64,000 nucleotides of DNA from the NCBI RefSeq assembly GCF_003115775.1, contig NZ_QEES01000002.1, forward strand, positions 744,001-808,000, read 5' to 3'. A program made the translations under genes and the position numbers. Shown here one piece after another: positions 7,671 through 60,540 of this stretch; positions within the stretch are counted from its first letter, which is position 1; each line of letters begins with the position of its first letter. The notes under the pieces are model-generated. The model was given only the letters and a program-made list of their open reading frames with translations, searched no databases and was not told the DNA's origin. Source of the stretch: Cellulomonas sp. WB94. GTDB taxonomy: Bacteria; Actinomycetota; Actinomycetes; Actinomycetales; Cellulomonadaceae.

Positions 7671-7680
7671 CTGCTCGAGA

Positions 7681-10560: not shown

Positions 10561-10913
10561 GTCTCACCCATCACCATGATGTGAGTCGACTCGGCGCACC
10601 ACTGCGCCGGCCGACCTGCGGATGGGCACCGCTGCCTCGGCGCGCGCGAATCCGGCGAGCGGGCAGACGCGCCCCTCGTCAAGCGTCACGGAGTGCGAGG
10701 TCACGGGTGCCCGGTGCGCAGACTGGTCGCCTCGCGCAGTTGGGAGCATAACCAACAGATCGGACAAATATGGGCGTTTCGCCCATCGTGACGCACGTCA
10801 CTTCTCGCCGGGAGACGGCGCCTGACCAGGGCGGCGATCCTGATGGGCTGCCCGCGCCGCGTGCAGCCCGCACGGCAGCCACGACTCAGCGAGCGGTGGC
10901 AGGACCGCGACGG
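10561..10913. other. Intergenic region between map and the surface-protein gene
   Basis: This 353-bp stretch carries no gene I can support. It holds a perfect short hairpin, ATGGGCG-TTT-CGCCCAT (10770-10786), a CRP-like palindrome next to it, a TATGCT hexamer (minus strand, about 10746-10751) that could be a -10, and a weak GGGCTGC/GCAGCCC hairpin (10845-10869) that might end map transcription. No good -35 accompanies TATGCT. Confidence 0.5.
10788..10801. promoter_or_regulatory. CRP/FNR-type palindrome (GTGA-N6-TCAC)
   Basis: GTGA (10788-10791), six bases and TCAC (10798-10801) match the core of the CRP/GlxR-class consensus. It sits about 230 nt upstream of the surface-protein start and next to the possible -10 TATGCT. 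Binding is inference only. Confidence 0.35.
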
Positions 10914-11753: not shown

Positions 11754-11766
11754 GGACCGCGCTGCG

Positions 11767-12345
11767 TCAGCCGACGTACGGGGCGATCGCCGCGAGCAGT
11801 CGCTGCGTCACCTCGTCGACCGCGCCGATGCCGTCCACCTGCACCAGCAGGTCGCGCGAGGCGTACACGCCCGCGATGGGCGCCGTCTGCTCCGCGTAGA
11901 CGTCGAGCCGATGGCGGACGACGGACTCGGTGTCGTCGGCGCGTCCTTCGATCTCGGCTCGCTTGAGGAGCCTGTCGACCACGGCCGCGGCGTCCGCGGT
12001 GATCTCGACGGCGACGTCCAGCGAGCGACCGGTCGACGTGAGGATGTCATCGAGCTCTGCGACTTGCGCGACGTTCCGCGGGTAGCCGTCGAGCAGGAAC
12101 CCGCCCTCGACGTCGGGCTCGGCGAGCCGGTCCCGCACCATCGCGTTCGTGAGCTCGTCGGGGACGAGCGCACCGGCGGACGTGTACTCCTGCACCTTGA
12201 GGCCCAGGGCCGTGCCGCCCTTGATGTTCGCCCGGAAGATGTCGCCCGTCGAGATCGCGGGGACGCCCAGGCTCTCGGCGAGCCGCACGGCCTGCGTCCC
12301 CTTGCCGGCTCCGGGCGGACCCAGCAGGACCAGACGTGCGCTCAT
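11767..12345 (-). CDS. adk: Adenylate kinase
   Basis: Interconverts AMP plus ATP and two ADP. The 192-residue protein has the P-loop GPPGAGKGT (9-17), the AMP-binding STGDIFRANI and the GFLLDGYPRN segment. It is the short actinobacterial form with a short LID and no zinc cysteines. The start is ATG 12345, which overlaps the secY stop as ATGA and indicates translational coupling. An upstream extension of the open frame is only secY read out of phase. Confidence 0.97.
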   Translation of the reverse strand: MSARLVLLGPPGAGKGTQAVRLAESLGVPAISTGDIFRANIKGGTALGLKVQEYTSAGALVPDELTNAMVRDRLAEPDVEGGFLLDGYPRNVAQVAELDDILTSTGRSLDVAVEITADAAAVVDRLLKRAEIEGRADDTESVVRHRLDVYAEQTAPIAGVYASRDLLVQVDGIGAVDEVTQRLLAAIAPYVG

Positions 12346-13640: not shown

Positions 13641-13748
13641 CTGTCCTCCTGCTCCGCCGTGGCGGTGTGTCGTACGACCGGCTGACCCGGTCGTGAAGCG
13701 TCCCCTGGCACCGCGTCCACTACGAGATCGTGCCGGGGCGCCCCGGGA

Positions 13749-13779
13749 ACCCTAACGGAGAAACCCACCGATGCGACAA
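13749..13779 (-). promoter_or_regulatory. Possible secY promoter
   Basis: Minus-strand TTGTCG (13774-13779), a 19-bp spacer and TAGGGT (13749-13754) lie just after the rplO terminator and about 110 nt before secY. The spacer is longer than ideal. Confidence 0.35.
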
Positions 13780-13815
13780 CGGGGCCGGCAGGAACTGTGT
13801 CCCTGCCGACCCCGT
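13779..13815 (-). terminator. Terminator after rplO
   Basis: ACGGGGCCGGCAGG pairs with CCTGCCGACCCCGT with one mismatch and an 8-nt loop. It starts 8 nt after the rplO stop and so separates the spc ribosomal genes from secY-adk-map. Confidence 0.65.
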
Positions 13816-13822
13816 CATGCGA

Positions 13823-14473
13823 TCAGTCCTGCGCGACGCTCCCGCCGGCGGCCAGGATCTTGTCCTTGGCCGACGTCGAGTACGCGTCGACGTCCACGCT
13901 GAGCTTGACCGTGATCTCGCCCGTACCCAGCACCTTGACGAGCTTGCCCTTGCGGACAGCGCCCTTGGCGACGAGGTCGTCGACCGTCACGGTGCCACCG
14001 TTCGGGTACAGGTCCGACAGCGCGTCCAGGTTCACGACCTGGTACTCGGTGCGGAACGGGTTCTTGAAGCCGCGGAGCTTGGGCAGCCGCATGTGCAACG
14101 GCATCTGCCCGCCCTCGAAGCGGTCCGGGATCTGGTAGCGCGCCGCCTGCCCCTTGGTACCGCGACCAGCCGTCTTGCCCTTGGACGCCTCGCCACGACC
14201 CACGCGGGTCTTGGCGGTCTTGGCGCCGGGAGCCGGACGCAGGTGGTGCATCTTCAGCGTTCCGCCGGAGGACACCTCCTCAGCTGCCGCCTTCGCCGTC
14301 GCCGCCTTGGCCGGAGCCTTGGCGGGCTTCGACGCAGCGGCGGCTGTGGCCTTGGCCTTGGGGGCCGCCTTCTCGGCGGACTCCGCAGCCACAGCCTTCT
14401 TGGCCGGAGCCTTCTTCGCCGGGGTCTTCACCACGGCGTCGTCAGCGGCCTTCTTGTCGTCAGCCATCGTCAC
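13823..14473 (-). CDS. rplO: 50S ribosomal protein L15 with long basic N-terminal tail
   Basis: Large-subunit protein uL15. The core starts near residue 70 ([15 protein letters not shown], then [20 protein letters not shown]) and is of normal size. In front is a tail of about 68 residues rich in Ala, Lys and Pro (KKAPAKKA-like units) that resembles histone-H1-type tails. Two starts are possible: GTG 14473, which overlaps the rpmD stop as GTGA, and ATG 14467 ([10 protein letters not shown]); AGGAGG lies 4 or 10 nt upstream respectively. It is the last gene of the spc ribosomal block before a terminator. Confidence 0.95.
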
Positions 14474-14652
14474 TCGACCTCCTCTACCGCAACAAGGTGC
14501 GTCACCGTGGTCACCATGCCGCGGATCTCAGGACGGTCCTCCTTGACGACGACGTCGCCGATCCGCTTCAGGCCCAAGGAACGCAGCGTGTCGCGCTGGT
14601 TCTGCTTGCCGCCGATGGCGGACCTGGTCTGGGTCACCTTCAGACGAGCCAT
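14470..14652 (-). CDS. rpmD: 50S ribosomal protein L30
   Basis: Small large-subunit protein uL30 of 60 residues: [20 protein letters not shown], then a SLGLKRIGD segment and the conserved MVTTVTHLV before the acidic end. ATG 14652 overlaps the rpsE stop by one base (TGATG), and its own stop overlaps the rplO GTG, so all three are probably translationally coupled. Confidence 0.97.
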
Positions 14653-15299
14653 CAGACACCCGCCTTCGCAGCGATGCCCGCGGCTTGCGCCCGGAGCAGC
14701 GACGCCGGCGCGACGTGCTCGACCGGCAGGCCGCGACGTGCGGCGACCTGCTCGGGGAGCTCGAGGCCGTGCAGCGCCGCAACCGTGGCGTGCACGATGT
14801 TGATCGAGTTCGTCGACCCGAGCGACTTGCTGAGCACGTCGTGGATGCCGGCGCACTCCAGCACCGCGCGCACCGGACCGCCGGCGATCACACCGGTACC
14901 CGGCGACGCCGGACGGAGGAAGACGACACCGGCAGCTGCCTCACCCTGGACCGGGTGAGGAATCGTGCCCTGGATGCGAGGAACCTTGAAGAAGTTCTTC
15001 TTGGCCTCCTCGACGCCCTTGGCGATTGCCGCAGGCACCTCCTTGGCCTTGCCGTAGCCGACGCCGACCGTGCCGTCACCATCGCCCACCACGACGAGCG
15101 CGGTGAAGCTGAACCGGCGGCCACCCTTGACGACCTTGGCCACGCGGTTGATCGTCACGACGCGCTCGAGGAACGCGCTCTTCTCGGGGGCGTCACGACG
15201 CCCGCCACCGTCACGGCGACCGCCGTCGCGGCGCTCGCCCCCGCCGGTTCCGGTGCCGCCCGCAGGCGCCCCGGTGTTGCTGCGCTGAGGAGCAGCCAT
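14652..15299 (-). CDS. rpsE: 30S ribosomal protein S5
   Basis: Small-subunit protein uS5, important for mRNA unwinding and decoding accuracy. Residues 1-37 are a Gly/Arg-rich tail. The core then follows with [41 protein letters not shown] and the C-terminal [16 protein letters not shown]. The length of 215 exceeds the usual 165-200 because of the tail. The start is ATG 15299. It lies between rplR and rpmD. Confidence 0.98.
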
Positions 15300-15339
15300 C
15301 AGTGAGTCCTCTTCTTCGATGCGGAGATGAACAGCGTCG

Positions 15340-15711
15340 TCACAGGGCCAGACCGCCTTCGCGGGCCCCGTCGGCGACTGCCGCCACCCGGCCGTGGTAC
15401 TTGTTGCCGCCGCGGTCGAACACGACCGAGTCGATGCCGGCCGCCTTGGCGCGCTCGGCGACGAGCTCGCCGACCTTGCGGGCCTTGGCGGTCTTGTCGG
15501 CGCCGAGGCTCCGCAGGTCCGCCTCGAGCGTGGAGGCCGAGGCCAGAGTCCGCCCGACGCCGTCGTCCACGACCTGCGCCGTGATGTGCCGTGCGGAGCG
15601 CGTCACGACGAGACGCGGACGCGCCGCGCTGCCGCTGACCTTCTTGCGCAGACGCAGGTGCCGCCGCGCGCGGGCAATCGCCTTGCCCTTGCCCTTGATG
15701 GAGATCGCCAT
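15340..15711 (-). CDS. rplR: 50S ribosomal protein L18
   Basis: 5S rRNA-binding protein uL18. The 123 residues begin [20 protein letters not shown] and contain [20 protein letters not shown] and the C-terminal [20 protein letters not shown]. The start is ATG 15711, 3 nt after rplF. It belongs to the spc block. Confidence 0.97.
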
Positions 15712-15714
15712 GGC

Positions 15715-16254
15715 TTACTTCCCAGCCTTTCCGACCTTGCGGCGCACGTTCTCGCCGGAGTACCGCACGCCCTTGCCCTTGTAGGGCTCAGGCTTGCGGA
15801 TCTTGCGAATGTTCGCGGCGACCTCGCCGACCTGCTGCTTGTCGATGCCGATGACCGAGAACTTCGTCGGGCTCTCGACAGCGAACGTGATGCCGGCCGG
15901 GGCCGCGACCGCGACCGGGTGGCTGAACCCGAGTGCGAACTCGAGCCCACCGTCCTTCGCGGCGACGCGGTAACCGGTTCCGACGATCTCGAGCTTCTTC
16001 TCGTAGCCGTCGGTCACACCGATGACGAGGTTCGCCAGCAGCGTGCGCGTCAGTCCGTGCAGCGAGCGCGAAGCGCGCTCGTCGTTCGGACGCGTGACCA
16101 CGAGAGCGCCTGCGTCATCACGCGCGACCTCGATAGGGGTGGCAACCGTGTGCGCCAGGGTGCCCTTGGGCCCCTGGACCGTCACCACGGCGCCGTCGAT
16201 CTTGACATCCACGCCGGCCGGGACCGGGACGGGGATTCTGCCGATACGAGACAT
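15715..16254 (-). CDS. rplF: 50S ribosomal protein L6
   Basis: Large-subunit protein uL6 near the factor-binding site. The 179 residues begin [20 protein letters not shown] and contain the duplicated fold, the [20 protein letters not shown] segment and the C-terminal [20 protein letters not shown]. Size and motifs are standard. The start is ATG 16254, in the spc operon between rpsH and rplR. Confidence 0.98.
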
Positions 16255-16278
16255 GGCTAGCTCCTTTCCGTCTCGGAC

Positions 16279-16677
16279 TTACCAGACGTAGGCGAGGACT
16301 TCCCCACCCACGCCCTTCTTGGCGGCCTGCTTGTCGGTCAGGAGACCAGAGGACGTGGACAGGATCGCCACGCCCAGGCCTCCGAGGACCTTGGGCAGGT
16401 TGGTCGACTTGGCGTACACGCGCAGGCCCGGCTTGGACACGCGCTTGATGCCGGCGAGCGAGCGCTCACGGTTGGGGCCGTACTTGAGCTCGATGATGAG
16501 GTACTTGCCTACGGGGGCGTCCTCAACCTTCCAGCTCGCGATGTAGCCCTCGGCCTGCAGGATCTCAGCGATGTGCGACTTCAGCTTCGAGTACGGGATG
16601 GTTACCGAGTCGTGGTGCGCCGAGTTCGCATTACGCAGACGTGTCAGCAGGTCTGCGATCGGGTCGGTCATCGTCAT
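16279..16677 (-). CDS. rpsH: 30S ribosomal protein S8
   Basis: Small-subunit assembly protein uS8, which in many bacteria also represses the spc operon by binding its mRNA. The 132 residues start [20 protein letters not shown] and end with [23 protein letters not shown] 16677 gives the normal length; a second ATG six bases on (16671) is a possible start. It lies between rpsZ and rplF. Confidence 0.98.
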
Positions 16678-16751
16678 GGGGCTTCAGCCCTCTCTCATCG
16701 GGGTATCTGGACCGCGTCGCGAGACGCGGTCCAGACCTACGACGTCGTTGG

Positions 16752-16937
16752 TTACCAGCTGCTCTTGGTCACGCCGGGGAGCTCGCCGCGGTGCGCCATC
16801 TCGCGCACGCAGATGCGGCAGAGCCCGAACTTGCGATACACAGCGTGCGGACGTCCGCAGCGCTGGCACCGCGTGTAGGCGCGGACCTTGAACTTCGGGG
16901 TCGCGGCTGCCTTCTGGATCAGGGCGGTCTTCGCCAT
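16752..16937 (-). CDS. rpsZ: 30S ribosomal protein S14, type Z
   Basis: The short zinc-binding form of uS14, in the 30S head. It has 61 residues, with the zinc cysteines in [20 protein letters not shown]. All four Cys are present. It begins [20 protein letters not shown] at ATG 16937, 2 nt after the rplE stop. A second, zinc-free S14 is often encoded elsewhere in actinomycetes; none is in this window. Confidence 0.97.
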
Positions 16938-16939
16938 TG

Positions 16940-17524
16940 TCAGTCCTCCTTGAAGGGGAAGCCGAGACGCTTCAGAAGCGAGCGGCCCTCATCGTCTGTC
17001 GTCGCGGTCGTCACGACAGTGATGTCCATGCCGCGCACTCGGTCGATCTTGTCCTGATCGATCTCGTGGAACATCGACTGCTCCGTGAGGCCGAACGTGT
17101 AGTTGCCGTGCCCGTCGAACTGCTTCGCCGAGAGCCCGCGGAAGTCGCGGATGCGCGGCAGCGCGGTCGACAGGAGACGGTCCAGGAACTCCCAGGCACG
17201 GTCGCCGCGCAGCGTGACGTGCGCGCCGATCGGCATCCCCTCACGCAGCTTGAACTGCGCGATGGACTTGCGGGCCTTGGTCACCTGCGGCTTCTGGCCC
17301 GTGATCTGGGTCAGGTCGCGCACAGCGCCGTCCATGAGCTTGGAGTCCTTGGCGGCGTCTCCGACACCCATGTTCACGACGACCTTCACGAGGCGCGCGA
17401 CCTGGTTGACGTTGGCGTGCTTGAACTCCTCGTGCAGCGCCGGGACGATCTCCTCGGCGTAGCGCGTCTTCAGGCGCGGCTGGGAAACCTCGACCGCGGG
17501 GGTGTTCTCGTCGATAGCGGTCAT
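16940..17524 (-). CDS. rplE: 50S ribosomal protein L5
   Basis: 5S rRNA-binding protein uL5, which contacts P-site tRNA. The 194 residues have an N-terminal extension of about 15, then [30 protein letters not shown], [20 protein letters not shown] and the C-terminal [22 protein letters not shown] 17524 overlaps the rplX stop by one base (TGATG), which suggests coupling. Confidence 0.98.
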
Positions 17525-37251: not shown

Positions 37252-37785
37252 TCAGGCTGCGTCTTCGGTGGGCTCGTCGCGCTTGACGCGCAACGCCTCG
37301 ACGGTGCGAACGGCCTTCGCTGCAGGCGCCGTGAAGAGGTACGCCGCCTGGTAGAGCGACGCCTTGAGCACGCCGGCCGTCTTGGCCAGCAGGACCTCGC
37401 GGGACTCGAGGTCCGCGAGCTTGATGATGTCCGCGGCGGTCAGGGCGCGTCCTTCGAGGACACCGCCCTTGATGACCAGTGCGGGGTTCGCCTTGGCGAA
37501 GTCACGCAGACCCTTGGCTGCCTCGACCGGGTCACCGGTCACGAAGGCGATGGCCGAGGGACCGGCCAGGTGGGAGTCGATACCCTCGACGCCCGCCTGC
37601 TTGGCCGCGATAGCGGTCAGCGTGTTCTTCACCACGGCGTAGGTTGCGTTGCCGCTGAGCGCGCGCCGCAGCTGCTTGAGCTGCGCAACGGTGAGCCCGC
37701 GGTACTCGGTCAGCACGGCCGCGTTGGACTCGCGGAACCGGTCCGTGAGCTCTGCGACATCGGCTGCCTTGTCCGGCCTCGCCAT
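37252..37785 (-). CDS. rplJ: 50S ribosomal protein L10
   Basis: Stalk base protein uL10, which anchors the L7/L12 dimers and usually represses its own leader when in excess. The 177 residues start [20 protein letters not shown] at ATG 37785 and include [27 protein letters not shown] and the C-terminal helix for L12. A longer open frame upstream covers the structured leader and is not coding. Confidence 0.97.
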
Positions 37786-37984
37786 GGCAATCCTTCCGGT
37801 GGTGATGCCACCGGTCGTCCTCGGCCCCACAACGAGAAAGAGCCCCGCGCAGGCGCGGGGCTCGACATGCACGCCGTGGCGTGCGGACCGAAACTCTCAC
37901 CTGCGCTGGCTCCCGCTGCTGCGGGACTTCGGGCGTTCTCTGCACACCTGCGCTGCATGAGGACGACGACCGGCGGTCTTGGGT
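37786..37984 (-). promoter_or_regulatory. L10 leader with two perfect hairpins
   Basis: The roughly 200-nt leader before rplJ holds GCACGCC-GT-GGCGTGC (37869-37884) and then AGCCCCGCGC-AG-GCGCGGGGCT (37841-37862). On the minus strand the second is followed by a T-rich TTTCTCG stretch. This looks like an attenuator-type stem in an L10 autoregulatory leader. Function is inferred from position and known L10 leaders in other bacteria. Confidence 0.55.
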
Positions 37985-37990: not shown

Positions 37991-38019
37991 AGACTACGTC
38001 ACGGTCGACCGGTGGCCAA
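37991..38019 (-). promoter_or_regulatory. Putative rplJ-rplL promoter
   Basis: Minus-strand TTGGCC (38014-38019), a 17-bp spacer and TAGTCT (37991-37996) lie directly after the stop of the CHAT gene at 38028. No terminator is visible between the two, so the CHAT operon may read into rplJ. Confidence 0.5.
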
Positions 38020-38027
38020 ATCCCGGC

Positions 38028-40667
38028 TCAGACGGGCGCACCGAAGCTCACCAGCGGGACGACGGCCCCGTCGGCCTCGAACCCCTCGGCGGTCGCCGTC
38101 GCGAGCGCCTCGGCCACCGGGCGGCCCGCGCTGAGGAGCGCGTGCACGCGTGTCATGACGCTCAGCGCCACCTCGTCCGACACGGGCGCGAGAGCTGCGA
38201 CGACGCAGCCGACACCGCCGCGCAGCAGCACGCTCGCAAAGCCCAGCGCCTCGCCGCCCGGACGGACGCTGGCACGACCGACCTCGCAGCACGAGAGCAC
38301 GACGAGCTCGGGCGCTCCGCCGCCCGCGTCGAGCTCGTGGGCGAACAACGGGCCGTCGGCCATGCGCACCGAGGAGAACAGGGGGTTGTCCGGCTCGTGG
38401 CGACCGTGCGCGGCCAGGTGGACGATCCCGGGCGCGCCGAGCATCTCGATCGTGCGCGCGCAGGTCGCGTCCTCGCCGGCGAGCACCGTGGCCTGCGGCC
38501 AGAGCCGGGCGACCTCGCGCACCTCGTCCGCCGCGTGCCGCAACCCCGGGCCCGCCGCGGCACTCAGGTTCGGCAGCGCGCCGGAAGCCGACCCCGCGTG
38601 CGTGCGCCAGTGGTGCACGGAGGGCGCGACGACGGTCGGCCGGCCGCGCCGGGACGCGAGCATCGACCACGGGACAACCCCCAGCCAGCCGCTCGCGACG
38701 ACGACGACCTGTCCGGGCGAACGCAGGACGTCACGCATCTGCGCGTCGAGCTCCTCCAGGCAGCGGGTGAGCGACCGAGACGCGGCAGCCCGCAGCGGCA
38801 GCGGCACGAGGGTGTTGGCGACCACCTCGAGGTCGGCGTGCACCCGGCGGGCGGCCTCACGCATGCGGGACGCGTCGCCCAGGTCGTGGAGGCTGACGCG
38901 CCCCCGTCCTTCGTCATCCTCCACACGGACGGCGACGAGCCGACCCGCATGCTCGGCGACGTCCAGCACCGTGGTGCCCGGGTGCAGGCGCACGGTCTCG
39001 CGGACCTGCCGGGTGGTCCCGATCTGGTCCTCCCCCGCCTGACCCTCCCGGTGCCACGACCGCGCCAAGATGGCCTGCTTCAGCCGGAGCGCGTCGCGCC
39101 GGACCCGGATGCGCTCCGGGTCGGCCGCGGGCAACGACTCGATCCCGCGCGCGCCGTCGAGCAGCTGGCGCAGCTCGGCGAGCAACGCCGCCGACTCGGG
39201 GTCGCGCGGCGGGTTGACGCGCTGCACCGCACCGACCACAGCCCGGGTGCGTTCGGCCGCGTCGAGGACCGCCGACGGCTGGCCGCTCGTGAGCGCGAGC
39301 TCCATGTCGATCTCGGCCAGGCGGCTCCCGTGCACGGCGGCAGCGGTCCGCAGGTCGAGCGAGCCGAAGCCCGCGCGGTGCACGCCGAGGTCGCGCTGGC
39401 CCTCCCGGACATGGCGCCCGGCACGCGTGCGGTCACCAGCCGCGAGCGCGAGCAGCGCCCGGATGCGCCGGCCGTGCAGGCGCACCGTGATCGGGTCCCC
39501 GGGCGAGACCGGTCCGAGCGCCGCGAGCCGCTCTGCCGCGTCGGGCACCGGTCCACGGGCCAGCCGGGCCTCGAGACCGACGAGCGAGGCGACGTACGCC
39601 CACACCGGGCGGCCAGAACGCCGGCACAGCAGCTCGAGACGGGCCGCGCGCGCGGCAAGGATGCCCCACGCCCGGCGCTGCGCAGGGTCGCTCGTCGGCG
39701 AGGACGTCGGGCGCGCCAGGTCCGCTGCATCGATCTGCAGACCGATCACGGTGGCTCGTACCGCCCACGACTCCTCACCACGGCGCACGAACCGGCGCCG
39801 CGCCGACGTCACGAGCGCACGCGCGTGGTCGACGTCCCCGCGGAGCATCGCGCACTCCGCGCGCACCAGCTCGCTCTCCGCGAGGTCGTGGCCCAGCCGG
39901 TCGGCAGCGAAGATCTCGGCAGCCTCAGCGAGCGTCGCGTCCGCGACCCCGACGAGCCCCGCCTCGAGCAGCACACGTGCGCGGTCGAGCAGCGCGATCG
40001 CGCGCGTCCGGCCCGGCAGGCTGCGCGCGGCCTCCTCCATCCGCGCGAGCGCCAGCGGGAGCCGGCCGGCGAGGAACTCCAGGTAGCCCAGGTTGTGCTG
40101 CGCCTTGAAGACGAGCCGGGCGAAGCCGGCCGCGCTTGCACGCTCGGCGCACTCGGTCAGGTCCGCGCGCGCCGGCGCCAGCTCGCCACGATCCATGTGC
40201 AGCACGCCGCGGTTCAGCAGCGCCCGGCACGCGTCGATGGCATCGGCCTCGTGGACGTGCTCGAGGGCCTCGTTGAGCGCGTGGAGCGACTCCTCCGGGC
40301 GCCCGGAGCGCAGGTAGAGCAGACCGCGCATGCCCGCGAGCGCCGGATCCAGCCCTGGCCAGCCCGACGCTCCGTCGGCGTGCGCGGCCGCTGCAAGCTC
40401 GGCGAGCCGGGTGAGCTGGGTCTCGACGTCACCGCGTCGCTCGTAGTCGCTCTTGACGAGCTCGATCGCCGCCCGGACCCGCACGCGCGCGACCTCGTCC
40501 GACGGGGGCAGCCCCTCCAGGCGGCGCAGGACGGGTCGGAGGCGGCGACCGGCGAGCGCGGGCTGACCCTCGGCGTTCTCCACCACGGCGCGGTCGACGA
40601 CGGCCGCCAGCCGCTCGAGGGTGTCAACAGCGGCCCGCTCCGGTGCGCGCCCGCCTCGGACCGTCAT
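38028..40667 (-). CDS. TPR-CHAT domain protein (caspase-like protease)
   Basis: An 879-residue cytoplasmic protein. About residues 30-550 are helical TPR-like repeats, for example LLYLRSGRPEESLHALNEAL, RALLNRGVLHMDRGELAPAR and FKAQHNLGYLEFLAGRLPLA. Residues from about 560 to 879 are a CHAT domain of the caspase/separase clan, with the catalytic His754 in VHLAAHG and Cys794 in VVLSCCEVG, where the usual SAC is SCC. A protease activated through its TPR sensor is the likely role; the substrate is unknown. The start is ATG 40667, 5 nt after the upstream gene. The frame is open much further upstream, but that part is the sigma-factor gene read in another register. It is the last gene of a sigma-partner-CHAT operon. 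Confidence 0.85.
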   Translation of the reverse strand: MTVRGGRAPERAAVDTLERLAAVVDRAVVENAEGQPALAGRRLRPVLRRLEGLPPSDEVARVRVRAAIELVKSDYERRGDVETQLTRLAELAAAAHADGASGWPGLDPALAGMRGLLYLRSGRPEESLHALNEALEHVHEADAIDACRALLNRGVLHMDRGELAPARADLTECAERASAAGFARLVFKAQHNLGYLEFLAGRLPLALARMEEAARSLPGRTRAIALLDRARVLLEAGLVGVADATLAEAAEIFAADRLGHDLAESELVRAECAMLRGDVDHARALVTSARRRFVRRGEESWAVRATVIGLQIDAADLARPTSSPTSDPAQRRAWGILAARAARLELLCRRSGRPVWAYVASLVGLEARLARGPVPDAAERLAALGPVSPGDPITVRLHGRRIRALLALAAGDRTRAGRHVREGQRDLGVHRAGFGSLDLRTAAAVHGSRLAEIDMELALTSGQPSAVLDAAERTRAVVGAVQRVNPPRDPESAALLAELRQLLDGARGIESLPAADPERIRVRRDALRLKQAILARSWHREGQAGEDQIGTTRQVRETVRLHPGTTVLDVAEHAGRLVAVRVEDDEGRGRVSLHDLGDASRMREAARRVHADLEVVANTLVPLPLRAAASRSLTRCLEELDAQMRDVLRSPGQVVVVASGWLGVVPWSMLASRRGRPTVVAPSVHHWRTHAGSASGALPNLSAAAGPGLRHAADEVREVARLWPQATVLAGEDATCARTIEMLGAPGIVHLAAHGRHEPDNPLFSSVRMADGPLFAHELDAGGGAPELVVLSCCEVGRASVRPGGEALGFASVLLRGGVGCVVAALAPVSDEVALSVMTRVHALLSAGRPVAEALATATAEGFEADGAVVPLVSFGAPV

Positions 40668-40672
40668 CGACG

Positions 40673-41176
40673 CTAGAGCTCGATCTGCGGAGTGACGACC
40701 GGCAGGTCGGGGTCCTCCGGTCGGCGCAGGACGAGCCTGGCCGGACCTCGCCCGAGGTCCGAGAACGAGAAGCGGCCGTCGGCGTCGGACTGCGCGCGCG
40801 TGACGAGACCGCCCTGGTGCAGCTCGACGCCGAGCGAGGCAGGCGGGGTCGCCCAGCCGTCGACGCGGACGCGGTCCGCCTCCGCATGCACGGTGATCAT
40901 CACGGTGAGCACGTCGGTCGTGAACGTGATGGTGGCGGCCTCGATGCTCGGCTCCTCCGAACGCAGGGCGAGGTCGGGGGCGCCGATCAGCCGCAGCTCC
41001 GCCATCTCGGTGTGGAGCGCGTCGATGGTCAGGGCCAGGCCGATGCTGTCGACCAGCCCGGCGGGCACCGGGTCGACGCGTTCGATGATCGCTGCCAGCC
41101 GGTGCAGGATCTCCGCGTCCACGACGTCGAGCGTGCCGGAAGCCACGCGCGCGAGCGTCAGCTCGTCGGGGCTCAT
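40673..41176 (-). CDS. Hypothetical protein, partner of the CHAT operon
   Basis: A 167-residue protein with no family I can name with confidence. The N-terminal half (about 1-60) is helical (ELTLARVASGTLDVVDAEIL). The C-terminal half looks like a beta-sandwich of the carboxypeptidase-regulatory type, ending GLVTRAQSDADGRFSFSDLG and a final ELHQG-PARLVLRR style strand set. There is no membrane segment. ATG 41176 overlaps the sigma-factor stop as ATGA, and the CHAT gene starts 5 nt after its own stop, so the three are tightly coupled. It could be an anti-sigma-like or adaptor protein; this is inference. Confidence 0.7.
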   Translation of the reverse strand: MSPDELTLARVASGTLDVVDAEILHRLAAIIERVDPVPAGLVDSIGLALTIDALHTEMAELRLIGAPDLALRSEEPSIEAATITFTTDVLTVMITVHAEADRVRVDGWATPPASLGVELHQGGLVTRAQSDADGRFSFSDLGRGPARLVLRRPEDPDLPVVTPQIEL

Positions 41177-41802
41177 CGCACACCCCACTCGGGGTCGGCG
41201 GTGAGCGCGATCCGCAGCTTGGCCAGGCACCGTCCGCGCGTCGGACCGATGCTGCCGACCGGCATGCCCAGGGTCCGTGACACGACCGCATAGTCCGGCC
41301 GGTCGACGAGCGAGACCAGACCGAGCAGCCGTCTGCACCTGTCGGGGAGCGTGCGGACGTGCGCCCACAGGATGCGGTCGCGCTCGTCGCGGACGGCGAG
41401 CGCCTCGGGGACCTCCTCGGCCGGGGCGGCGAGCCACTGCGTCGCGCCCTCGTCGCTGCGGGTGCGTCCGGCGTCCTCGCGCGACTTGCGGACCGTGCGC
41501 CACGCCGAACGCTTCGCGGTGACGAGCATCCACTGGAGCGCTGCGCGCGGGTCGCGGATCGTCTCGAGGTCGCGGACGAGCGAGAGCCACACACCCTGGA
41601 CGACGTCCTGCGCCTGCTCCTGGTCGGCCCCTTGGGCGCGCACGGTGTGCCACAGCAACGGGGTGAGCGCGGGGACGAGCTCCGCCAACGGCCCGCGGTC
41701 ACCGTCGCGGTACGCGACCACCGCGTCGGCCGCCCGATCAGCCAGGCTCTTACCCCGGTACTGCAGGTCAGAGGCCAGAGGGCCTACCCGGTCGTCACTC
41801 AT
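41173..41802 (-). CDS. ECF-type RNA polymerase sigma factor
   Basis: A 209-residue sigma-70-family factor with region 2 (WHTVRAQGADQEQAQDVVQG, WLSLVRDL, WMLVTAKRSAWRTVRKSR) and region 4 (LPDRCRRLLGLVSLVDRPDY, then RTLGMPVGSIGPTRGRCLAK). It lacks regions 1 and 3. The start is taken as ATG 41802 because GAGGG lies 6 nt upstream; ATG 41805 directly before it is possible. It heads the operon with the 167-residue partner and the CHAT protein, and is divergent from the trypsin-fold protease. It probably drives one or both of these units. Confidence 0.85.
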   Translation of the reverse strand: MSDDRVGPLASDLQYRGKSLADRAADAVVAYRDGDRGPLAELVPALTPLLWHTVRAQGADQEQAQDVVQGVWLSLVRDLETIRDPRAALQWMLVTAKRSAWRTVRKSREDAGRTRSDEGATQWLAAPAEEVPEALAVRDERDRILWAHVRTLPDRCRRLLGLVSLVDRPDYAVVSRTLGMPVGSIGPTRGRCLAKLRIALTADPEWGVR

Positions 41803-41927
41803 CATTGACCCTCGCACATGGGCATCGTCGGGCGGCCGTCCCTGCCAGACTAGGGCGACCCGGACAACTCCGACAAGCAGCAACCGGTGCAGCCGGAGTC
41901 ATGACCTGAGGAGTGGTCCACGGGTGC

Positions 41928-42005
41928 CCTGATACATGCCGGCCACCTACCCGCCGCACGGGCTTCGGCCCGGAAGCGTGCACAGGTCAGCACTCGTGTA
42001 TCAGG
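41928..42005. promoter_or_regulatory. Divergent control region with paired TGTATCAGG elements
   Basis: CCTGATACA at 41928-41936 and TGTATCAGG at 41997-42005 are perfect inverted copies 60 bp apart. Each points toward one of the two divergent units, about 120 nt before the sigma gene and about 85 nt before the protease gene. They could be matched promoter elements for the local sigma factor or operator half-sites. Confidence 0.5.
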
Positions 42006-42090
42006 ACCCGCACCTGCGGTTCTTCCACCGTGCACCCACCGCCCGACCCACGCCCCGCTCCGATGAGCCGGCCCGCAAGGAGAGAGCACC

Positions 42091-43656
42091 ATGAGTGAAG
42101 TTCCCGACCGGCAGACCCCTGACCGCGAGCGGATCCGACCGGTCAAACGGCGGGTCGAGGACCAGCTCATCGCGTTGCCCGGGGTCGTCGGCGTCGACAT
42201 CGGCGAGAAGGTGTCACGCGGCGAGCCGACGGGGTCGGAGTCGATCGTCGTGCACGTCAACCAGAAGGTCGACGTCAGCCGGCTGCCCGCGGACCAGCTG
42301 ATCCCCGCCGAGATCGACGGCATCCCCACCGATGTCGTCGAGCACCGCATCCGCCTGCAGGCGCACCTCGTGCCGTTCGCCGGGGCAGTCGCACCGACGC
42401 CGGGCGCCGACACCACCGACACGCGGCGGTACCGACCGCTCGCCGGCGGGGCGAGCATGGGGCCGTACCGTCCGGTCCCGCGCGGAGGGTCCGTCGTGGA
42501 CGGGGCCCCTGGCGAGTACCTCGTCGCCGGGACGCTCGGTGCGTTCGTCACCGACCGTCGCACGGGCCGGACGCTCGCGCTCACCAACTTCCACGTCGCC
42601 GCGGTCGACACCGGCTGGCGCGCGGGCGACCTCCAGCTCCAGCCGTCACGCATCGACGACGGAGCGATGGCCGGTTCGCCGATTGGCACCGTGCAGCGCG
42701 CGGTCATCTCCGACCGGGTCGACGGCGCGGCCGTCCTGCTCGCACCCGGCACGCAGTGGTACCCGGGAGTCATCGGCATCGGACCGGTCAAGGGCAGGGC
42801 CGTCGCCCGGATCGGTCAGACGGTGCGCAAGCGGGGCCGCACGACCGGGCTGCGCCGCGGGACCGTCAGCTCGGTCGACTTCACCGTGCAGATCGACTTC
42901 GGTGGCGAGACCGGCGTCCGCACCCTGCGTGACCAGGTGCGCATCGATCGCGACCCGACCGAGGCGGAGTTCTCCGCCGGGGGCGACTCGGGATCGGTCG
43001 TCGTCGACGACCGCGGCCGCGTCGTCGGCCTGCTGTTCGCCGGCGAGGAGGACGGCAGCTTCGCCCTCGCCAACCCCATCGATGCTGTGCTCGACGAGCT
43101 GGGCGTCAAGCTCGCGACGCCCAAGTCGGCCGCCCGCCGAGCCACCCGGGCCGCGCGCGCGGCGCAGGCCGCCCGGGCGGCACGGTGGGACGCGGCCCTG
43201 GACGCCTGGGCGGCGGCGACCGGCGCGGGACGGTGGCTGACCACGGCCGACCCGCGGGAGCCGGGCCGGTCCGGGCCGGCGCGACGCCCGACCGCCAGCG
43301 GGACGTCGTCCGCGGCGCGTGCGGGCGCGGTCTCTGCCCGGCAGACGGGGGGCGCGGCGGCGCAGCCGTTCACAGAGCCGTTCACGGAACCCTTCACCGA
43401 ACCGTTCACGGAACCCTTCACGGAACCCTTCACCGAACCCTTCACCGAGGCGTACCTCGCCGACCCGTTCACGGAGCCGTTCACCGAGCCCTTCACGGAA
43501 CCCTTCACCGAACCGTTCACCGAACCGTTCACGGAGCGGTTCGCTGCGCCGAACGGCGGCGGGCACACCGACGGGGAGGTCCCCCGCGCCCAGCTCGAGC
43601 GGGCGTTCTGGGCTGGCTACGTCGCCGCGCTCGGCCGCGGCTCGCGGAGGTACTGA
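42091..43656 (+). CDS. Cytoplasmic trypsin-fold serine protease with PFTE repeats
   Basis: A 521-residue protein with no signal peptide or membrane segment. Residues 25-90 form a small alpha/beta domain (LPGVVGVDIGEKVSRGEPTG, then IVVHVNQKVDVSRLPADQLI) found in front of Nal1-like bacterial proteases. Residues 140-340 are a trypsin-like domain with His168 (LTNFHVA), Asp211 (RVDGAAV) and Ser300 (GGDSGS), so the triad appears intact. After an Ala/Arg-rich helix come 13 PFTE units (426-482), broken once by AYLAD, and a short end QLERAFWAGYVAALGRG. ATG 42091 has AAGGAG upstream. It is followed after 5 nt by a kinase-like gene and is divergent from the sigma-CHAT operon. Confidence 0.85.
   Translation: MSEVPDRQTPDRERIRPVKRRVEDQLIALPGVVGVDIGEKVSRGEPTGSESIVVHVNQKVDVSRLPADQLIPAEIDGIPTDVVEHRIRLQAHLVPFAGAVAPTPGADTTDTRRYRPLAGGASMGPYRPVPRGGSVVDGAPGEYLVAGTLGAFVTDRRTGRTLALTNFHVAAVDTGWRAGDLQLQPSRIDDGAMAGSPIGTVQRAVISDRVDGAAVLLAPGTQWYPGVIGIGPVKGRAVARIGQTVRKRGRTTGLRRGTVSSVDFTVQIDFGGETGVRTLRDQVRIDRDPTEAEFSAGGDSGSVVVDDRGRVVGLLFAGEEDGSFALANPIDAVLDELGVKLATPKSAARRATRAARAAQAARAARWDAALDAWAAATGAGRWLTTADPREPGRSGPARRPTASGTSSAARAGAVSARQTGGAAAQPFTEPFTEPFTEPFTEPFTEPFTEPFTEAYLADPFTEPFTEPFTEPFTEPFTEPFTERFAAPNGGGHTDGEVPRAQLERAFWAGYVAALGRGSRRY
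43366..43536 (+). repeat. Twelve-base coding repeats for PFTE units
   Basis: Seven then six units of 12 bases (CCS TTC ACN GAR), separated by codons for AYLAD, lie within the protease gene. Third positions vary between units (ACA/ACG/ACC, GAG/GAA, CCG/CCC), which suggests selection on the peptide, not only recent slippage. Confidence 0.95.
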
Positions 43657-43661
43657 GCGCC

Positions 43662-44555
43662 ATGTCGGTCACTCTGGGGGACGGTGAGCGCGCCGACGCC
43701 GGAGCCGGGCAGGTCGTCACGCTGCGTCCCAGGAGGGGCGCACGCGGCGAGCCGGGTCGGGCGGGCAAGCTGTCACGCACCGCGGTCGGGCCGGCCAGCA
43801 CCCCTGCCGGCGACCCCGCCGCCGCTCCGACAGCCGACGTCGTCGGCCGCCCGCTCGCCGGCGAGCTCGCGGACCTTCTCGACGCACTGACCGACCGGGG
43901 ACCTGTGGCACCGCTCAGGGTCGAGCTCGGCGACCTGCTGGGCGCCTGGGCCTCAGCGCTCGTCCGCATCCACCGACGCCCCGTGGATGCGGGCACCCGG
44001 TCGGCGCCGCTCCCGTGGGTGCTGAGCCAGGAGCCCGTTCCTGCGTGGGTGACCGAGCTGCCCGCCGTGGCCGGACGCGCCTGGGCCGTCCGGGCACACC
44101 CGGCCACGCGGCGAGCGGTCGACGAGGCCCGCGCCGGCTGGTCCGCGTCGCACCGGGTGCACGGCGAGGCGGGCGACGACGTCGTCATCACGCGCGACGC
44201 GAACCACGCCATCCCGGCGGCACAGCTGCTGCCCGGCGCGTCCACGGGCCGGGGCGATGCCCGGTGGGACGTCGCCTCGGCGCTGGACTGGATCGCCGTC
44301 GTGCTCGGCCCGGCGCTTGACCCGGGTTGGCAGATCGACCCTGTCGCAGACTTCCTGGCGGCCTACCGCGCGCTCGGCGGGCAGGCCGAGCCCACCCGCG
44401 CACTCGCGGTGGCGCGCACGATCGCCACTGCCGTCGAGTGGAGCGCAGCGCTCGCGGCGGACAGCGCGTCGGCGTCCGCGGACGACCACGCCTGGCTGGC
44501 CGCCCTGTGGGCGCGTCCCCTCGACCTCGTCACGGGCGCCGCCCACCTCCCCTGA
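43662..44555 (+). CDS. Degenerate kinase-like protein (APH C-lobe type)
   Basis: A 297-residue protein. Residues 1-60 are a low-complexity basic stretch. From 85 on it resembles the C-lobe of aminoglycoside-phosphotransferase-like kinases: LGDLLGAWASALVRIHRRP, PWVL, ARAGWSASHRVHGE (167-169, where active kinases have HGD), then GRGDARWDVASALDWIAVVL. The ATP-binding N-lobe is missing, and the HGD and following Asn are altered, so it is probably a pseudokinase or a remote relative. ATG 43662 is 5 nt after the protease stop, so they form an operon. The fold assignment is inference. Confidence 0.65.
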   Translation: MSVTLGDGERADAGAGQVVTLRPRRGARGEPGRAGKLSRTAVGPASTPAGDPAAAPTADVVGRPLAGELADLLDALTDRGPVAPLRVELGDLLGAWASALVRIHRRPVDAGTRSAPLPWVLSQEPVPAWVTELPAVAGRAWAVRAHPATRRAVDEARAGWSASHRVHGEAGDDVVITRDANHAIPAAQLLPGASTGRGDARWDVASALDWIAVVLGPALDPGWQIDPVADFLAAYRALGGQAEPTRALAVARTIATAVEWSAALAADSASASADDHAWLAALWARPLDLVTGAAHLP

Positions 44556-44629
44556 TCTCGCCGTGCGCTCGCCCGATCTGCAGGGGGGACCGGGCGGGCA
44601 GGCCACGGCGGCGCGTGCCCGCACGCGAG

Positions 44630-57676: not shown

Positions 57677-58929
57677 TGCGTCAGGTTAGCCCGCACCGGT
57701 GCGGCCGCCCTGATCACGCCGAGGCCGATGACCACCGGGATCGCGATCGCGAGCAGCGCATGGCGGTAGCCCACGTGCTGCGCGAGCATCCCCAGCAGCG
57801 GCGGTCCCGCGAGGAACGCCGAGTAGCCGATGGTCGAGACGACGCTCACGCGGGCCGCGGCTCGCAGCGGGTCGTCGCTCGCCGCGCTCATCCCGACGGG
57901 GAAGCCGAGCGCCGCACCCATCCCCCACAGCACGACGCCGACGAGGGCGAGCCCCATCATGTCCTCGCTGACCAGGGCGAACAGCAGGAGGCCGGCCAGC
58001 GCGAGGCCCGAGCACAGGCGCAGGACGACGACGCGGCCGTACCGGTCGAGCAGCCCGGTCCCGAGGAACCGCATCGCGGTCATCGCGGTCACGAACAGCC
58101 CGAACGTGAGCGCGCCGACGGCGTTGTCCGTGCCGAAGCCGTCGACGACCGCGAGCGCGACCCAGTCGTTGGCGGACCCCTCGGTCAGGGCCGCGGCCAG
58201 CACCACGAGCCCGATGAGCAGCGTGCGACCCTCGAACCAGGCGCCGAACGCGCGGCGCAGGCGACCCTCGGAGGGCGCGTGCAGGGTCGGCTCGCCCTCG
58301 TGCGACGGCGCGCCGTGGCCGGTCGGCGTCGGGAGGAACTGGCGTACGGCCCACACCACCCCGAGCGTGGTCAGGACGACCACGACGGGCAGGTGCACGA
58401 CGACGGGTACCCGCAGCCACGCCGCGAGCGCCGCGACGCCCGCCGCAGCCGCCGTCCCGACCGAGAACCCCGCGTGGTACCGCGGCATGACCGTGCGGCC
58501 CAGGTGCTGCTCGACGATCGCGCCCTCGAGGTTCATCGCCGCGTCCCAGACCCCGGTCCCCACCCCGTACATCACGAGGCCGATCCCGACGACGACGACC
58601 TGCCCGGTCGCCACGCCGACGGACGCGACGGTGAGTCCCGACGCGTTGAGGATCGCGAAGCCCAGCACCGTCCGTGGGGCGCCGAGCCGGGTCACGAGCA
58701 GGCCCGAGAGCGGCAGCGCCAGCAACGAGCCGATCGAGCCGATGAGCAGCAGGACGCCGATCCGGCTCGGCGTCAGGCCGAGGCCGTCCCGCACCGCGGG
58801 CAGGCGCGCGGCCCAGCTCGAGAAGTTGAAGCCGTTGAGCACGAAGACGGCGAACACCGCGCGCGAGGCGGCCCGCAGCGCGGGATCGGTCGTTGTCCGG
58901 GACGACGCCCTGGCCGGTGCCGCGGTCAT
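57673..58929 (-). CDS. Major facilitator transporter, second of tandem pair
   Basis: A 418-residue protein with about 12 hydrophobic segments of the YbjJ/FucP-like MFS type: FVLNGFNFSSWAARLPAVRD at the start, then GVLLLIGSIGSLLALPLSGL. The GLPxGMS-like loop in the second half (ALGFPVGMSAASDDPLRAA) is nearly the same as in its neighbour, so the two are paralogues. ATG 58929 overlaps the stop of the first transporter, and its own stop overlaps murB. Substrate unknown. Confidence 0.9.
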   Translation of the reverse strand: MTAAPARASSRTTTDPALRAASRAVFAVFVLNGFNFSSWAARLPAVRDGLGLTPSRIGVLLLIGSIGSLLALPLSGLLVTRLGAPRTVLGFAILNASGLTVASVGVATGQVVVVGIGLVMYGVGTGVWDAAMNLEGAIVEQHLGRTVMPRYHAGFSVGTAAAAGVAALAAWLRVPVVVHLPVVVVLTTLGVVWAVRQFLPTPTGHGAPSHEGEPTLHAPSEGRLRRAFGAWFEGRTLLIGLVVLAAALTEGSANDWVALAVVDGFGTDNAVGALTFGLFVTAMTAMRFLGTGLLDRYGRVVVLRLCSGLALAGLLLFALVSEDMMGLALVGVVLWGMGAALGFPVGMSAASDDPLRAAARVSVVSTIGYSAFLAGPPLLGMLAQHVGYRHALLAIAIPVVIGLGVIRAAAPVRANLTQ

Positions 58930-60473
58930 GGCCGGCCCGCCAGGCTCGGCACGGGTTCGGTCCGCGGCCGGGGCAGCGACAGGGGTAGCGGTTCTGCGGT
59001 CACGGCTGGCGAAGGGGTCACGGCGGTCTCACCTGTCGAGGAGGTCACGGTGGTCACGGAGCTCACGGTGGTCACAGCGTCGAGTGTGCCCTGTTCGGGG
59101 CGGCCGACCGAGCGTGCGAGCAGCACGCTGACGACCATCGCGCCGGTGATGAGCAGCAGCGCATGGCGGATCCCGATCGACTGCGCGACGAGGCCGAGCA
59201 GCGGGGGCGCCGCCAGCGAGGCGACCGACGAGAACGCGGAGATCACCGAGACGCGGGCTGCGGCGCGCATCGGGTCGTCCGACGCGGCAGCGATCCCGAT
59301 CGGGAAGGCCAGTGCGGCACCGAAGCCCCAGGCCATCACACCGACAGCCGCGATCGGCAGGTTCGGTGCCAGGCCGAACAGCAGCAGGCCCGCCAGCGCG
59401 ACGAGGCCCGAGACCCGCAGGACCGCTACGCGCCCGTGACGGTCGATGAGCCGCGTGCCGAACAGCCGCACGAGCGTCATCGACCCGATGAAGACCGCCA
59501 GGACCACGGCGCCGACCGCCTCCGCGCGCCCGAACCCGTCGACCACCGCGAGCGAGAGCCAGTTGTTGGCGGAGCCCTCCGAGAGCGCGGCCGCCATGAT
59601 GACGGTGCCGATGAGCAGGGTCCGGGGCTCGCGCCACGCGTCGAGCGCTGAGGCGAGGCCCCGGCGGCGCACAGCGGTGCCCGCAGCGGAGGCGCCCGTG
59701 GCGGCGCGGTCCGGCGCGGCAACCTCCGACACGGCGAGGTCCTGCGCGGCGAGGTCCGACACGCCGAGGTCCGACACGCCGAGGTCCGGCGCGGCGAGGT
59801 CGGTCCGGCGCGGCGCCGCGACCGTGTCGAGGACGACGTGGGAGATCGAGCCGAGTCGCCAGGCGAGCGCGATCACGGCCGTCACACCGAACTGGACGGT
59901 CAGGGGCACTCCCCCGTGCGACGCGAGACCGCCGAGGCCCGAGCCGACGACCGCGCCGATCGAGAACGCCGCGTGGAAGTGCGGCAGCATCGTGCGGCCC
60001 ATGCGCCGCTCGACCGCTGCGGTCTCGACGTTGAGCGGCACGTTGCACAGCGCGAACGACATGCCGTTGAGCATCACGCCGACGACGAGCATCGCGACCG
60101 AGCCGGCCGTCGGCCCGATCCCCATGAACGCGTACGCGAGCGTGAAGCCGACGGTCGAGGCCAGCAGGACGCGTCGTCCGCCGAAGCGGGTGACGAGGGT
60201 TCCCGCGATCACCACCATCACGAGCGATCCGGCCGAGCTCGCGAGCAGCACGCTCCCGAGCTGTCCGGTCGACAGGCCGAGCTCGTCGCGGACGGTCGGG
60301 AGGCGTGCGAGCCAGCTCGAGAACGTCAGCCCGTTGAGGGCGAACAGTCCCAGGAGCAGCAGTCGGGCGCGGGCGACGAGGGGATCTGGCGTCGAGGTCG
60401 GGGCGATGGTGGGGACGGGACGGGACGCGCCCGAGGTGCGCGCGCTACTGCCGAGACTCACGAGACAACTCAC
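58926..60473 (-). CDS. Major facilitator transporter, first of tandem pair
   Basis: A YbjJ-like MFS transporter, paralogous to the next gene (LFALNGLTFSSWLARLPTVR; FPIGIAAASDDPMRAAARVS). The central cytoplasmic loop has short repeats with DLGVSDLGVSDLAAQDLAVS. The C-terminal tail of about 45 residues is Thr/Pro-rich. The frame is open to ATG 60539, but the LacI-type operator and the predicted transcription start lie within the first codons there. I therefore place the start at GTG 60473 (515 residues); GTG 60461 is also possible. Ribosome sites are weak. Confidence 0.8.
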   Translation of the reverse strand: MSCLVSLGSSARTSGASRPVPTIAPTSTPDPLVARARLLLLGLFALNGLTFSSWLARLPTVRDELGLSTGQLGSVLLASSAGSLVMVVIAGTLVTRFGGRRVLLASTVGFTLAYAFMGIGPTAGSVAMLVVGVMLNGMSFALCNVPLNVETAAVERRMGRTMLPHFHAAFSIGAVVGSGLGGLASHGGVPLTVQFGVTAVIALAWRLGSISHVVLDTVAAPRRTDLAAPDLGVSDLGVSDLAAQDLAVSEVAAPDRAATGASAAGTAVRRRGLASALDAWREPRTLLIGTVIMAAALSEGSANNWLSLAVVDGFGRAEAVGAVVLAVFIGSMTLVRLFGTRLIDRHGRVAVLRVSGLVALAGLLLFGLAPNLPIAAVGVMAWGFGAALAFPIGIAAASDDPMRAAARVSVISAFSSVASLAAPPLLGLVAQSIGIRHALLLITGAMVVSVLLARSVGRPEQGTLDAVTTVSSVTTVTSSTGETAVTPSPAVTAEPLPLSLPRPRTEPVPSLAGRP

Positions 60474-60516
60474 GATCTGCTGGGGACGGGCGTCGGTGCG
60501 TCCGGGTAGGTGCGTG

Positions 60517-60530
60517 TCGAATCGATTCGA
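60517..60530. promoter_or_regulatory. Perfect LacI-type operator palindrome
   Basis: TCGAATCGATTCGA is a perfect 14-bp palindrome with the central CG typical of LacI-family sites. It lies between the divergent lacI-type gene and the MFS-murB operon, just downstream of the -10 of the latter. It is the obvious target of the local regulator. Confidence 0.7.
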
Positions 60531-60540
60531 TACCGACATG

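Follow-up and report, generated by a model that had tools for sequence, protein, structure and literature searches.

A five-gene island with an ECF-type sigma factor, a TPR-CHAT protease and an array-bearing serine protease between rplA and rplJ in Cellulomonas

Genes and features of the island

We analysed a 64,000-nucleotide stretch of the genome of the soil bacterium Cellulomonas sp. WB94 (contig NZ_QEES01000002.1, positions 744,001 to 808,000; hereafter the window), in which a five-gene island lies between the ribosomal-protein genes rplA and rplJ. One strand of the island encodes an extracytoplasmic function (ECF)-type sigma factor, a small partner protein and a protein that joins tetratricopeptide repeats (TPR) to a CHAT protease domain, and the other strand encodes a trypsin-fold serine protease with a tandem peptide array and a kinase-like protein. 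The features, with positions counted from the first nucleotide of the window, are as follows.

37252-37872, minus strand: open reading frame (ORF) of rplJ, flank of the island; its exact start is not settled
38028..40667, minus strand: TPR-CHAT protease, 879 amino acids, His754/Cys794 (PF12770 and TPR_2)
40673..41176, minus strand: partner protein, 167 amino acids, candidate anti-sigma factor; N-terminal helices and a C-terminal immunoglobulin (Ig)-like sandwich in the predicted model
41173..41805, minus strand: ECF-type sigma factor, 210 amino acids (TIGR02937 and Sigma70_r2)
41909..41936, minus strand: putative sigma-dependent promoter of the sigma operon, TGTATCAGG-N13-ACTCCT, conserved in relatives
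41997..42024, plus strand: putative sigma-dependent promoter of the protease/kinase-like unit, TGTATCAGG-N13-GTTCTT, with the second half degenerate here
42091..43656, plus strand: NAL1-like trypsin-fold serine protease, 521 amino acids, His168/Asp211/Ser300 (weak matches to Trypsin_2, Nal1_C and NAL1 chains)
43366..43536, plus strand: (PFTE)n tandem array in the C-terminal part of the trypsin-fold protease, 7 + 6 copies flanking the spacer EAYLAD
43662..44555, plus strand: degenerate APH-type kinase (pseudokinase), 297 amino acids, homologous to the APH kinase of locus L081
44678-45397, minus strand: rplA, flank of the island

It was found that all five ORFs are open and that no other gene lies in the interval, which confirms the two divergent units given in a preliminary description of this DNA. 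The coupled starts given there were also recovered: the sigma and partner genes overlap in an ATGA, and gaps of 5 nucleotides separate the partner gene from the CHAT gene and the protease gene from the kinase-like gene. The left edge, earlier placed at 37999, was slightly off, because the CHAT gene ends at 38028, and the ORF that ends at 37999 is in a different frame. The proposed shared control elements are present as TGTATCAGG-type sites that face both units and have counterparts in relatives.

The sigma factor matched TIGR02937 (sigma70-ECF) over residues 41-200 with an E-value of 1.3e-11 and 44.4 bits, above the cut-off of 42.9 bits, and matched Sigma70_r2 of Pfam at 8.8e-7, also above the cut-off; thus region 2 was found by Pfam, and region 4 was not. 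The predicted model of the partner protein (mean predicted local distance difference test score, pLDDT, 77.5) has N-terminal helices followed by a C-terminal seven-strand sandwich, and the sequence matched CarboxypepD_reg of Pfam below the cut-off (4.4e-4).

The TPR-CHAT protein matched CHAT (PF12770, 1.3e-27) and TPR_2 (3.8e-7), both above the Pfam cut-offs. Its CHAT part gave weak profile matches (E about 0.04) to chains named 'CHAT domain protein' (8d9f, 7x8a and others), which are presumably Craspase entries. The matches of the trypsin-fold protease to Trypsin_2 (4.1e-4) and Nal1_C (1e-4) were both below the cut-off, and because the Nal1 domain models did not reach their cut-offs (22.1 bits compared to 26.1 for Nal1_C, and 15 compared to 27 for NAL1_N) this enzyme is NAL1-like by resemblance only. 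A loss of catalytic residues in relatives, considered in the preliminary description, was not seen in the aligned sequences: His754 and Cys794, the catalytic dyad of the CHAT family, are invariant in 13 aligned CHAT proteins, and the triad His168/Asp211/Ser300 is invariant in 13 aligned trypsin-fold proteins.

The kinase-like protein matched no Pfam or NCBIfam family. It is homologous (E 5e-9, hhalign 97%) to a neighbour gene in locus L081 that encodes an intact APH kinase (Pfam APH, 3.7e-20). Since HGD is replaced by HGE, and the N and DFE motifs of the L081 protein are lost, the kinase-like protein is, as judged from these motifs, a pseudokinase of a degenerate APH type.

Conservation of the core and of a promoter-like motif

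When bacterial genomes were scanned, the CHAT gene had 27 relatives, of which 20 are in Cellulomonas, the source of the nearest relatives of the window gene; the 3.87-Mb host genome has a single CHAT match at E 0.001 or better. In the 20 Cellulomonas loci, the sigma, partner, TPR-CHAT and divergent protease genes are kept to the limits of the contigs. The sigma gene with the divergent protease gene beside it was present in 19 of these loci (L006 is cut by a contig end), CHAT followed by rplJ was present in 19 (L002 is cut), and rplA was reached in 12, with a kinase-like gene detected in 8 of the 12. The spacing between CHAT and rplJ was about 1.3-1.6 kb in L006, L010 and L019, and elsewhere in the Cellulomonas loci it was roughly 0.2-0.4 kb. 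The same slot holds co-directional genes for a sigma factor, a partner, an S8 subtilase and a CHAT protein in Actinotalea, in Isoptericola and in a metagenome-assembled genome related to them (L022, L023, L024, L026). These S8 versions of the locus rule out a five-gene unit that is fixed in all relatives.

Among 248 genomes of the order, 49 had a single match each to a partner profile; among 346 genomes of the phylum, 25 were matched, including two with two matches. The 48 order loci, which omit the window's own genome and still include L060, L061, L062 and L065 (duplicates of L019, L010, L026 and L024), contained a sigma factor in 45, CHAT in 40, S8 in 36 (detection threshold 60 bits), a trypsin-fold protease in 5 and both ribosomal neighbours in 11. 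A serine protease accompanied CHAT in 38 of the 40 CHAT loci, the other two being on contigs of 6.7 and 4.5 kb; it was of the trypsin fold in five, two of which also had S8, and S8 in the remainder. The phylum survey covered 18 of 21 new matches (G468, G479 and G509 were left out) and detected a sigma factor in 16 loci, CHAT in 9, S8 in 8 and a trypsin-fold protease in 2. The Asp/His/Ser motifs were recognised by a text rule in 41 of 50 S8 proteins, truncated and distant ones included.

Homologues close to the trypsin-fold protease (E 9e-149 or better, the next being 4.5e-42) were present in 8 of the 248 genomes, all partner-positive. Six of these genes adjoin the module, one is separated from it by a contig break (G122), and one is on another contig (G030). 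S8 and trypsin-fold proteases occur together in L078, L081 and L110.

The slot between rplA and rplJ was occupied in the 11 order loci by members of the Cellulomonas family in ten cases and by a metagenome-assembled genome of another family in one; within the Cellulomonas family, own genome included, it was used in 11 of 11 partner-positive genomes. In the eight partner-negative genomes of that family, rplA was within 1.5 kb of rplJ in L175, L179 and L181, about 1.4 kb from it in G116 and G074, and 9.8 kb from it in G242, and was not found in the 14.7 kb examined in G220. In L182 (G060), the slot at 1382-6693 contains a diverged module, in which CHAT faces away from S8, sigma and partner, the S8 protein has no array, and there is one motif site upstream.

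Judged from gene content, the conserved core is an ECF sigma factor, a small partner, a TPR-CHAT protein and one serine protease. The serine protease is an S8 subtilase in most relatives, and in Cellulomonas it is a divergent NAL1-like trypsin-fold enzyme with no S8 in the locus. The earlier view of one co-regulated system, in which two proteases are combined with their own sigma factor and a pseudokinase, is supported within Cellulomonas and is not supported as a general five-gene unit. Likewise, the two units stay together in 19 of 20 Cellulomonas loci and not across the order, where only 5 of 40 CHAT loci have the trypsin-fold protease, and the location beside rplA and rplJ is fixed in the family and is found in a minority (11/48) of the order loci.

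The motif TGTATCwGG-N13-GCTCCT faces outward on both sides of the Cellulomonas intergenic region, and the plus-strand site of the window has GTTCTT compared to the GCTCCT of relatives. From its position before the sigma operon, we infer that the motif is read by the sigma factor. By a text rule, and with the four duplicate loci excluded, the motif was found within 500 nucleotides upstream of a sigma, S8 or trypsin-fold gene in 59 of 82 sigma-holding loci (sigma, 44/82; S8, 17/50; trypsin-fold, 22/25). Over the same 82 loci, the exact reversal and the complement gave 0, and shuffled stretches matched in a mean of 0.55 loci, with a maximum of 2. In 34/82 loci, the motif also occurred on the other strand of these upstream stretches, which is at least in part due to the divergent orientation of the promoters. 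Many loci with S8 as their first gene have the motif before that gene, and in L078, L081 and L110, which belong to other families and have a divergent trypsin unit, it precedes both units.

A stricter pattern gave 13 matches in 101 genomes of the family, five of them at the module (control, 2), and a relaxed pattern gave 94 candidate sites in 31 chosen genomes, compared to 8 for the reversed control. The window genome had one stricter match and three relaxed matches against one control match, which rules out a large regulon there. The genomes of genus g63 (G150, G224 and G122) have 7-11 sites each. The sites of G150 are followed by genes for two divergent CHAT proteins, a DUF6345 protein that, as seen by eye, has counterparts in G224 and G122, a peptidoglycan-binding protein, a zinc phospholipase C family protein, two secreted proteins, one AMIN-like and the other vWA-like (recognised by eye, without a Pfam match), and others without a family. 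The two divergent CHAT genes are at 816-5611 of L135 (G150), each preceded by the motif, and one of the proteins has a CBM9-like domain. The AMIN-like protein was rejected as a general output: the motif was present at 4 of 30 homologues, namely the four closest (G224, G150, G122 and G144, the last from the Cellulomonas family), and the window homologue is without it. Nothing clear was seen after the outside-locus sites of L132, L133 (no Pfam family), L136, L137, L138 and L142.

Peptide arrays of the serine proteases

The trypsin-fold protease of the window has 13 copies of PFTE near the C terminus, a feature absent from the preliminary description, and in the window genome the PFTE pattern matches only in this array. 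All 16 sufficiently long Cellulomonas protease genes, including that of the window, encode an array, with up to 36 PFT[EQ] units. The PFTE pattern was present in 9 of 101 genomes of the family as one cluster each (split by a contig break in G646), which rules out the array as a tag on many proteins of a genome.

The S8 proteins contain other units (PYTEPH, PFTQPL, GYGDGV, GWGQGV, NPFTRT, PFIETN, PFWGGH, NPAYQG and others), arranged in an array at the junction of a propeptide-like domain and the catalytic domain. Overall, 30 distinct units were found, 28 of which contain F, Y or W. An array was defined as three or more perfect copies; by this rule, the same loci contained an array in 2 of 276 other ORFs with a length of 300 amino acids or more.

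In Cellulomonas and its neighbours, the trypsin-fold units (PFTE, PFTQ) and the S8 units (PYTEPH, PFTQPL, PYTQPH, PYTQPF, HPFTQS) share P[FY]T[EQ], of which the Isoptericola group (g2) has a degenerate form. Because P[FY]T[EQ] is common to both folds in the family, the array unit appears to be tied to something besides the protease fold. Counter to a simple rule, the trypsin-fold proteins in L078 and L081 contain repeats rich in Cys and Thr that are unlike the units of the adjacent S8 proteins. As seen by eye, the trypsin proteins of L078, L081, L109 and L108 have a C-terminal stretch of Cys and Thr-Arg repeats in place of PFTE, and both these and the Cellulomonas enzymes end near an FWxGY or YWxGY motif. 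In L111 (G341), the region 5743-17181 contains tandem pairs of partner, S8 and CHAT genes, with the arrays PFTSGG and HPMYDG and one sigma gene detected; this locus is a natural specificity test of array/CHAT pairs.

A proposed protease-gated module, its alternatives and related systems

We propose a protease-gated, self-amplifying sigma-factor module as the explanation of the island, with the array as the coupling between the two proteases, a reading to which we give an even chance. In a resting cell, the partner would hold the ECF sigma factor, and the serine protease would be restrained. A stress or invasion signal, arriving through the TPR-CHAT protein, the serine protease or both, would lead to proteolysis in which the partner is cut and the sigma factor freed. 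The freed sigma factor would then transcribe from the TGTATCwGG-N13-GCTCCT promoters of both units, giving more sigma factor and more of both proteases, and in some lineages it would also drive CHAT, DUF6345, phospholipase and cell-wall genes. The array unit would be a substrate or ligand presented by one protease to the other. We infer the partner cleavage, the direction of signalling, a function of the array and the nature of the trigger; the array may act as a substrate, a tether or a released signal. The module is supported by the coupled starts of the sigma and partner genes and by the presence of sigma with partner in 45/48 order loci. Further support comes from the serine protease in 38/40 CHAT loci, the motif in 59/82 loci, the restriction of close trypsin homologues to partner-positive genomes (8/8), the codon pattern of the arrays and their place at the propeptide junction.

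The assignment of the partner as a candidate anti-sigma factor of the adjacent ECF sigma factor follows from gene order and from the precedent of type III-E CRISPR, in which a TPR-CHAT protease cuts the sigma inhibitor Csx30 (available text of PMC10028731). The module is best read, by analogy, as a counterpart of that cascade without CRISPR genes in the locus. Both have a TPR-CHAT protease, and in both, as far as the available text of PMC10028731 goes, sigma motifs lie within the locus itself. They differ in that the interval holds five genes only, with no Cas7-11 beside the protease (cas genes and CRISPR elsewhere in the genome were not searched), in the second, serine protease with its peptide array, and in the size of the partner, which is 167 amino acids compared to at least 565 residues for Csx30 (same source). 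No Csx30 chain appeared among the fold matches listed or in the search of solved structures with the partner profile, which returned designed TIM barrels besides a few chains of Ig-like or adhesin type.

Several observations weigh against the proposed module. The fold search with the partner model gave generic Ig-like folds only, and no anti-sigma factor. Arrays were found in 27 of the 48 order loci (L060, L061 and L062 being excluded from this count) and in 5 of the 18 phylum loci, and some S8 proteins have a degenerate array or none. The motif is missing in 23 of the 82 loci, and since the window genome has it almost exclusively in the island, the output there may be the module itself. Finally, 10 of the 18 phylum partner loci are without CHAT and S8 or trypsin together at the thresholds used (two of the ten, L115 and L124, have CHAT pieces below threshold, and some contigs are short), and therefore the sigma-partner pair, to judge from these loci, probably serves other outputs too.

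It could instead be that the module is an abortive-infection defence system and not a stress response, a tentative reading against which we lean. Proposed conflict systems often contain caspase-like and trypsin-like peptidases (available text of PMC7159879 and PMC8195603), CHAT is named among conflict effectors (available text of PMC10907252), and the candidate outputs in G150 include CHAT and phospholipase family proteins. However, the module is single-copy in 49/49 order genomes (two phylum genomes have two partner matches), it keeps a constant slot between ribosomal genes in the 11 partner-positive family genomes, and PADLOC gave no match among the five window proteins. Therefore, a resident regulator is likelier than a mobile defence island.

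The role of the array was approached by comparing loci. It was found that array similarity tracks divergence of the TPR region, with r values of 0.83 (47 loci), 0.68 (31 loci) and 0.65 (35 loci), all of which ignore shared descent. The standardized weights of the TPR region were 0.35 and 0.40 (31 and 35 loci; bootstrap 5% limit, 0.03), and those of the CHAT catalytic part were 0.04 and 0.07. This covariation in sequence is suggestive, and it would fit an array that is a multivalent docking tether, to which the TPR repeats of CHAT bind and so hold the serine protease, with no peptide released. We regard such a tether as possible, if doubtful: array similarity follows the TPR region with nothing added by the CHAT catalytic part, and P[FY]T[EQ] survives a change of protease fold in the Cellulomonas family. 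On the other hand, the regression is unclean, because the joint regression gave positive weight not only to the TPR and middle regions but also, and more heavily, to the S8 catalytic domain (0.72), and gave negative weights to the sigma factor (-0.45) and the S8 propeptide part (-0.47). The disregard of phylogeny also counts against the tether, as does the difference between the trypsin-fold and the adjacent S8 repeats in L078 and L081.

A reading that we consider unlikely makes each array a precursor with many copies of a private peptide signal, whose code is lineage-specific and portable between protease folds. The serine protease would carry 3 to 36 copies of one short peptide, placed at the S8 propeptide junction or C-terminally in the trypsin-fold enzyme; activation would cut the array, and the freed peptides would bind the TPR of the neighbouring TPR-CHAT protein, with the result that the sigma factor is unleashed. 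If true, this would be an intracellular relay resembling a peptide hormone. The relay would share with RRNPP quorum sensing the principle that TPR domains read short peptides, and the TPR profile of the island weakly matches Rap phosphatase chains; the TPR here is fused to a CHAT protease, and release and binding of a peptide are proposed here.

It is quite improbable that the array is a disordered linker only, uniform through repeat slippage and without a code. The S8 array is predicted to be disordered (pLDDT about 28), and copy number varies, as a linker would allow. However, when the copies within each of 50 arrays were compared, codons differed synonymously in 355 cases and non-synonymously in 35, a ratio inflated by the array rule, which demands three perfect copies. 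The protein sequence of the array is spared relative to its DNA, and because the copies agree as peptides and vary at the DNA level, slippage alone is insufficient for their uniformity. The array also has a constant position at the propeptide junction, and an unrelated protease fold has the same motif in the same family.

Finally, that the two divergent units are unrelated neighbours sharing a spacer would accommodate the S8 version without a trypsin unit in most relatives, but it is very improbable because the same motif faces both units in Cellulomonas, f17 and f47 genomes and because strong trypsin homologues occur only with the partner (8/8, G030 on another contig).

Among the nearest known arrangements to the proposed protease-gated module are the caspase/ECF neighbourhoods in the available text of PMC8195603. 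The EACC1/EACC2 conflict systems (available text of PMC7159879 and PMC8195603) likewise have a caspase-superfamily peptidase. They differ in that no EACC or TRADD-N domain is among the Pfam matches of the window proteins, and S8 or trypsin proteases with peptide arrays are not described in the available text of those sources. The S8 proteins found here differ from the subtilisin zymogens (pro-subtilisin E, pro-Tk-subtilisin and PCSK9) in having a lineage-specific tandem array at the junction. The window trypsin-fold enzyme has weak similarity to plant NARROW LEAF 1 in its N-terminal and protease domains, and it differs in being bacterial, in its C-terminal array and in lying below the Pfam cut-offs.

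No description of this combination was recognised in the titles and abstract beginnings of open-licence PubMed Central literature. The module would be a counterpart of the type III-E protease-sigma cascade that is resident in actinobacterial chromosomes, and as such belongs to a known kind, a proteolytically released sigma factor with CHAT, to which the array adds more if it proves to be a signal. The array is the feature for which no description was found: it is uniform within a protein, differs between lineages and is of the same type in two unrelated folds. If it is a signal or docking code, the loci offer about 30 naturally occurring peptide units for study, together with their TPR partners, and a code would show how caspase-like and serine proteases are wired together in bacteria.

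Two further features of the window were noted by eye, away from the island. The minus-strand gene at 9532-10560 encodes a protein that is probably secreted; it has a tandem repeat rich in Pro, Ser and Thr, and its C-terminal LAATG followed by a hydrophobic end resembles a sortase signal. A 15-base tandem repeat is present at 59701-59801, within a transporter-like gene on the minus strand (ORF 58926-60539).

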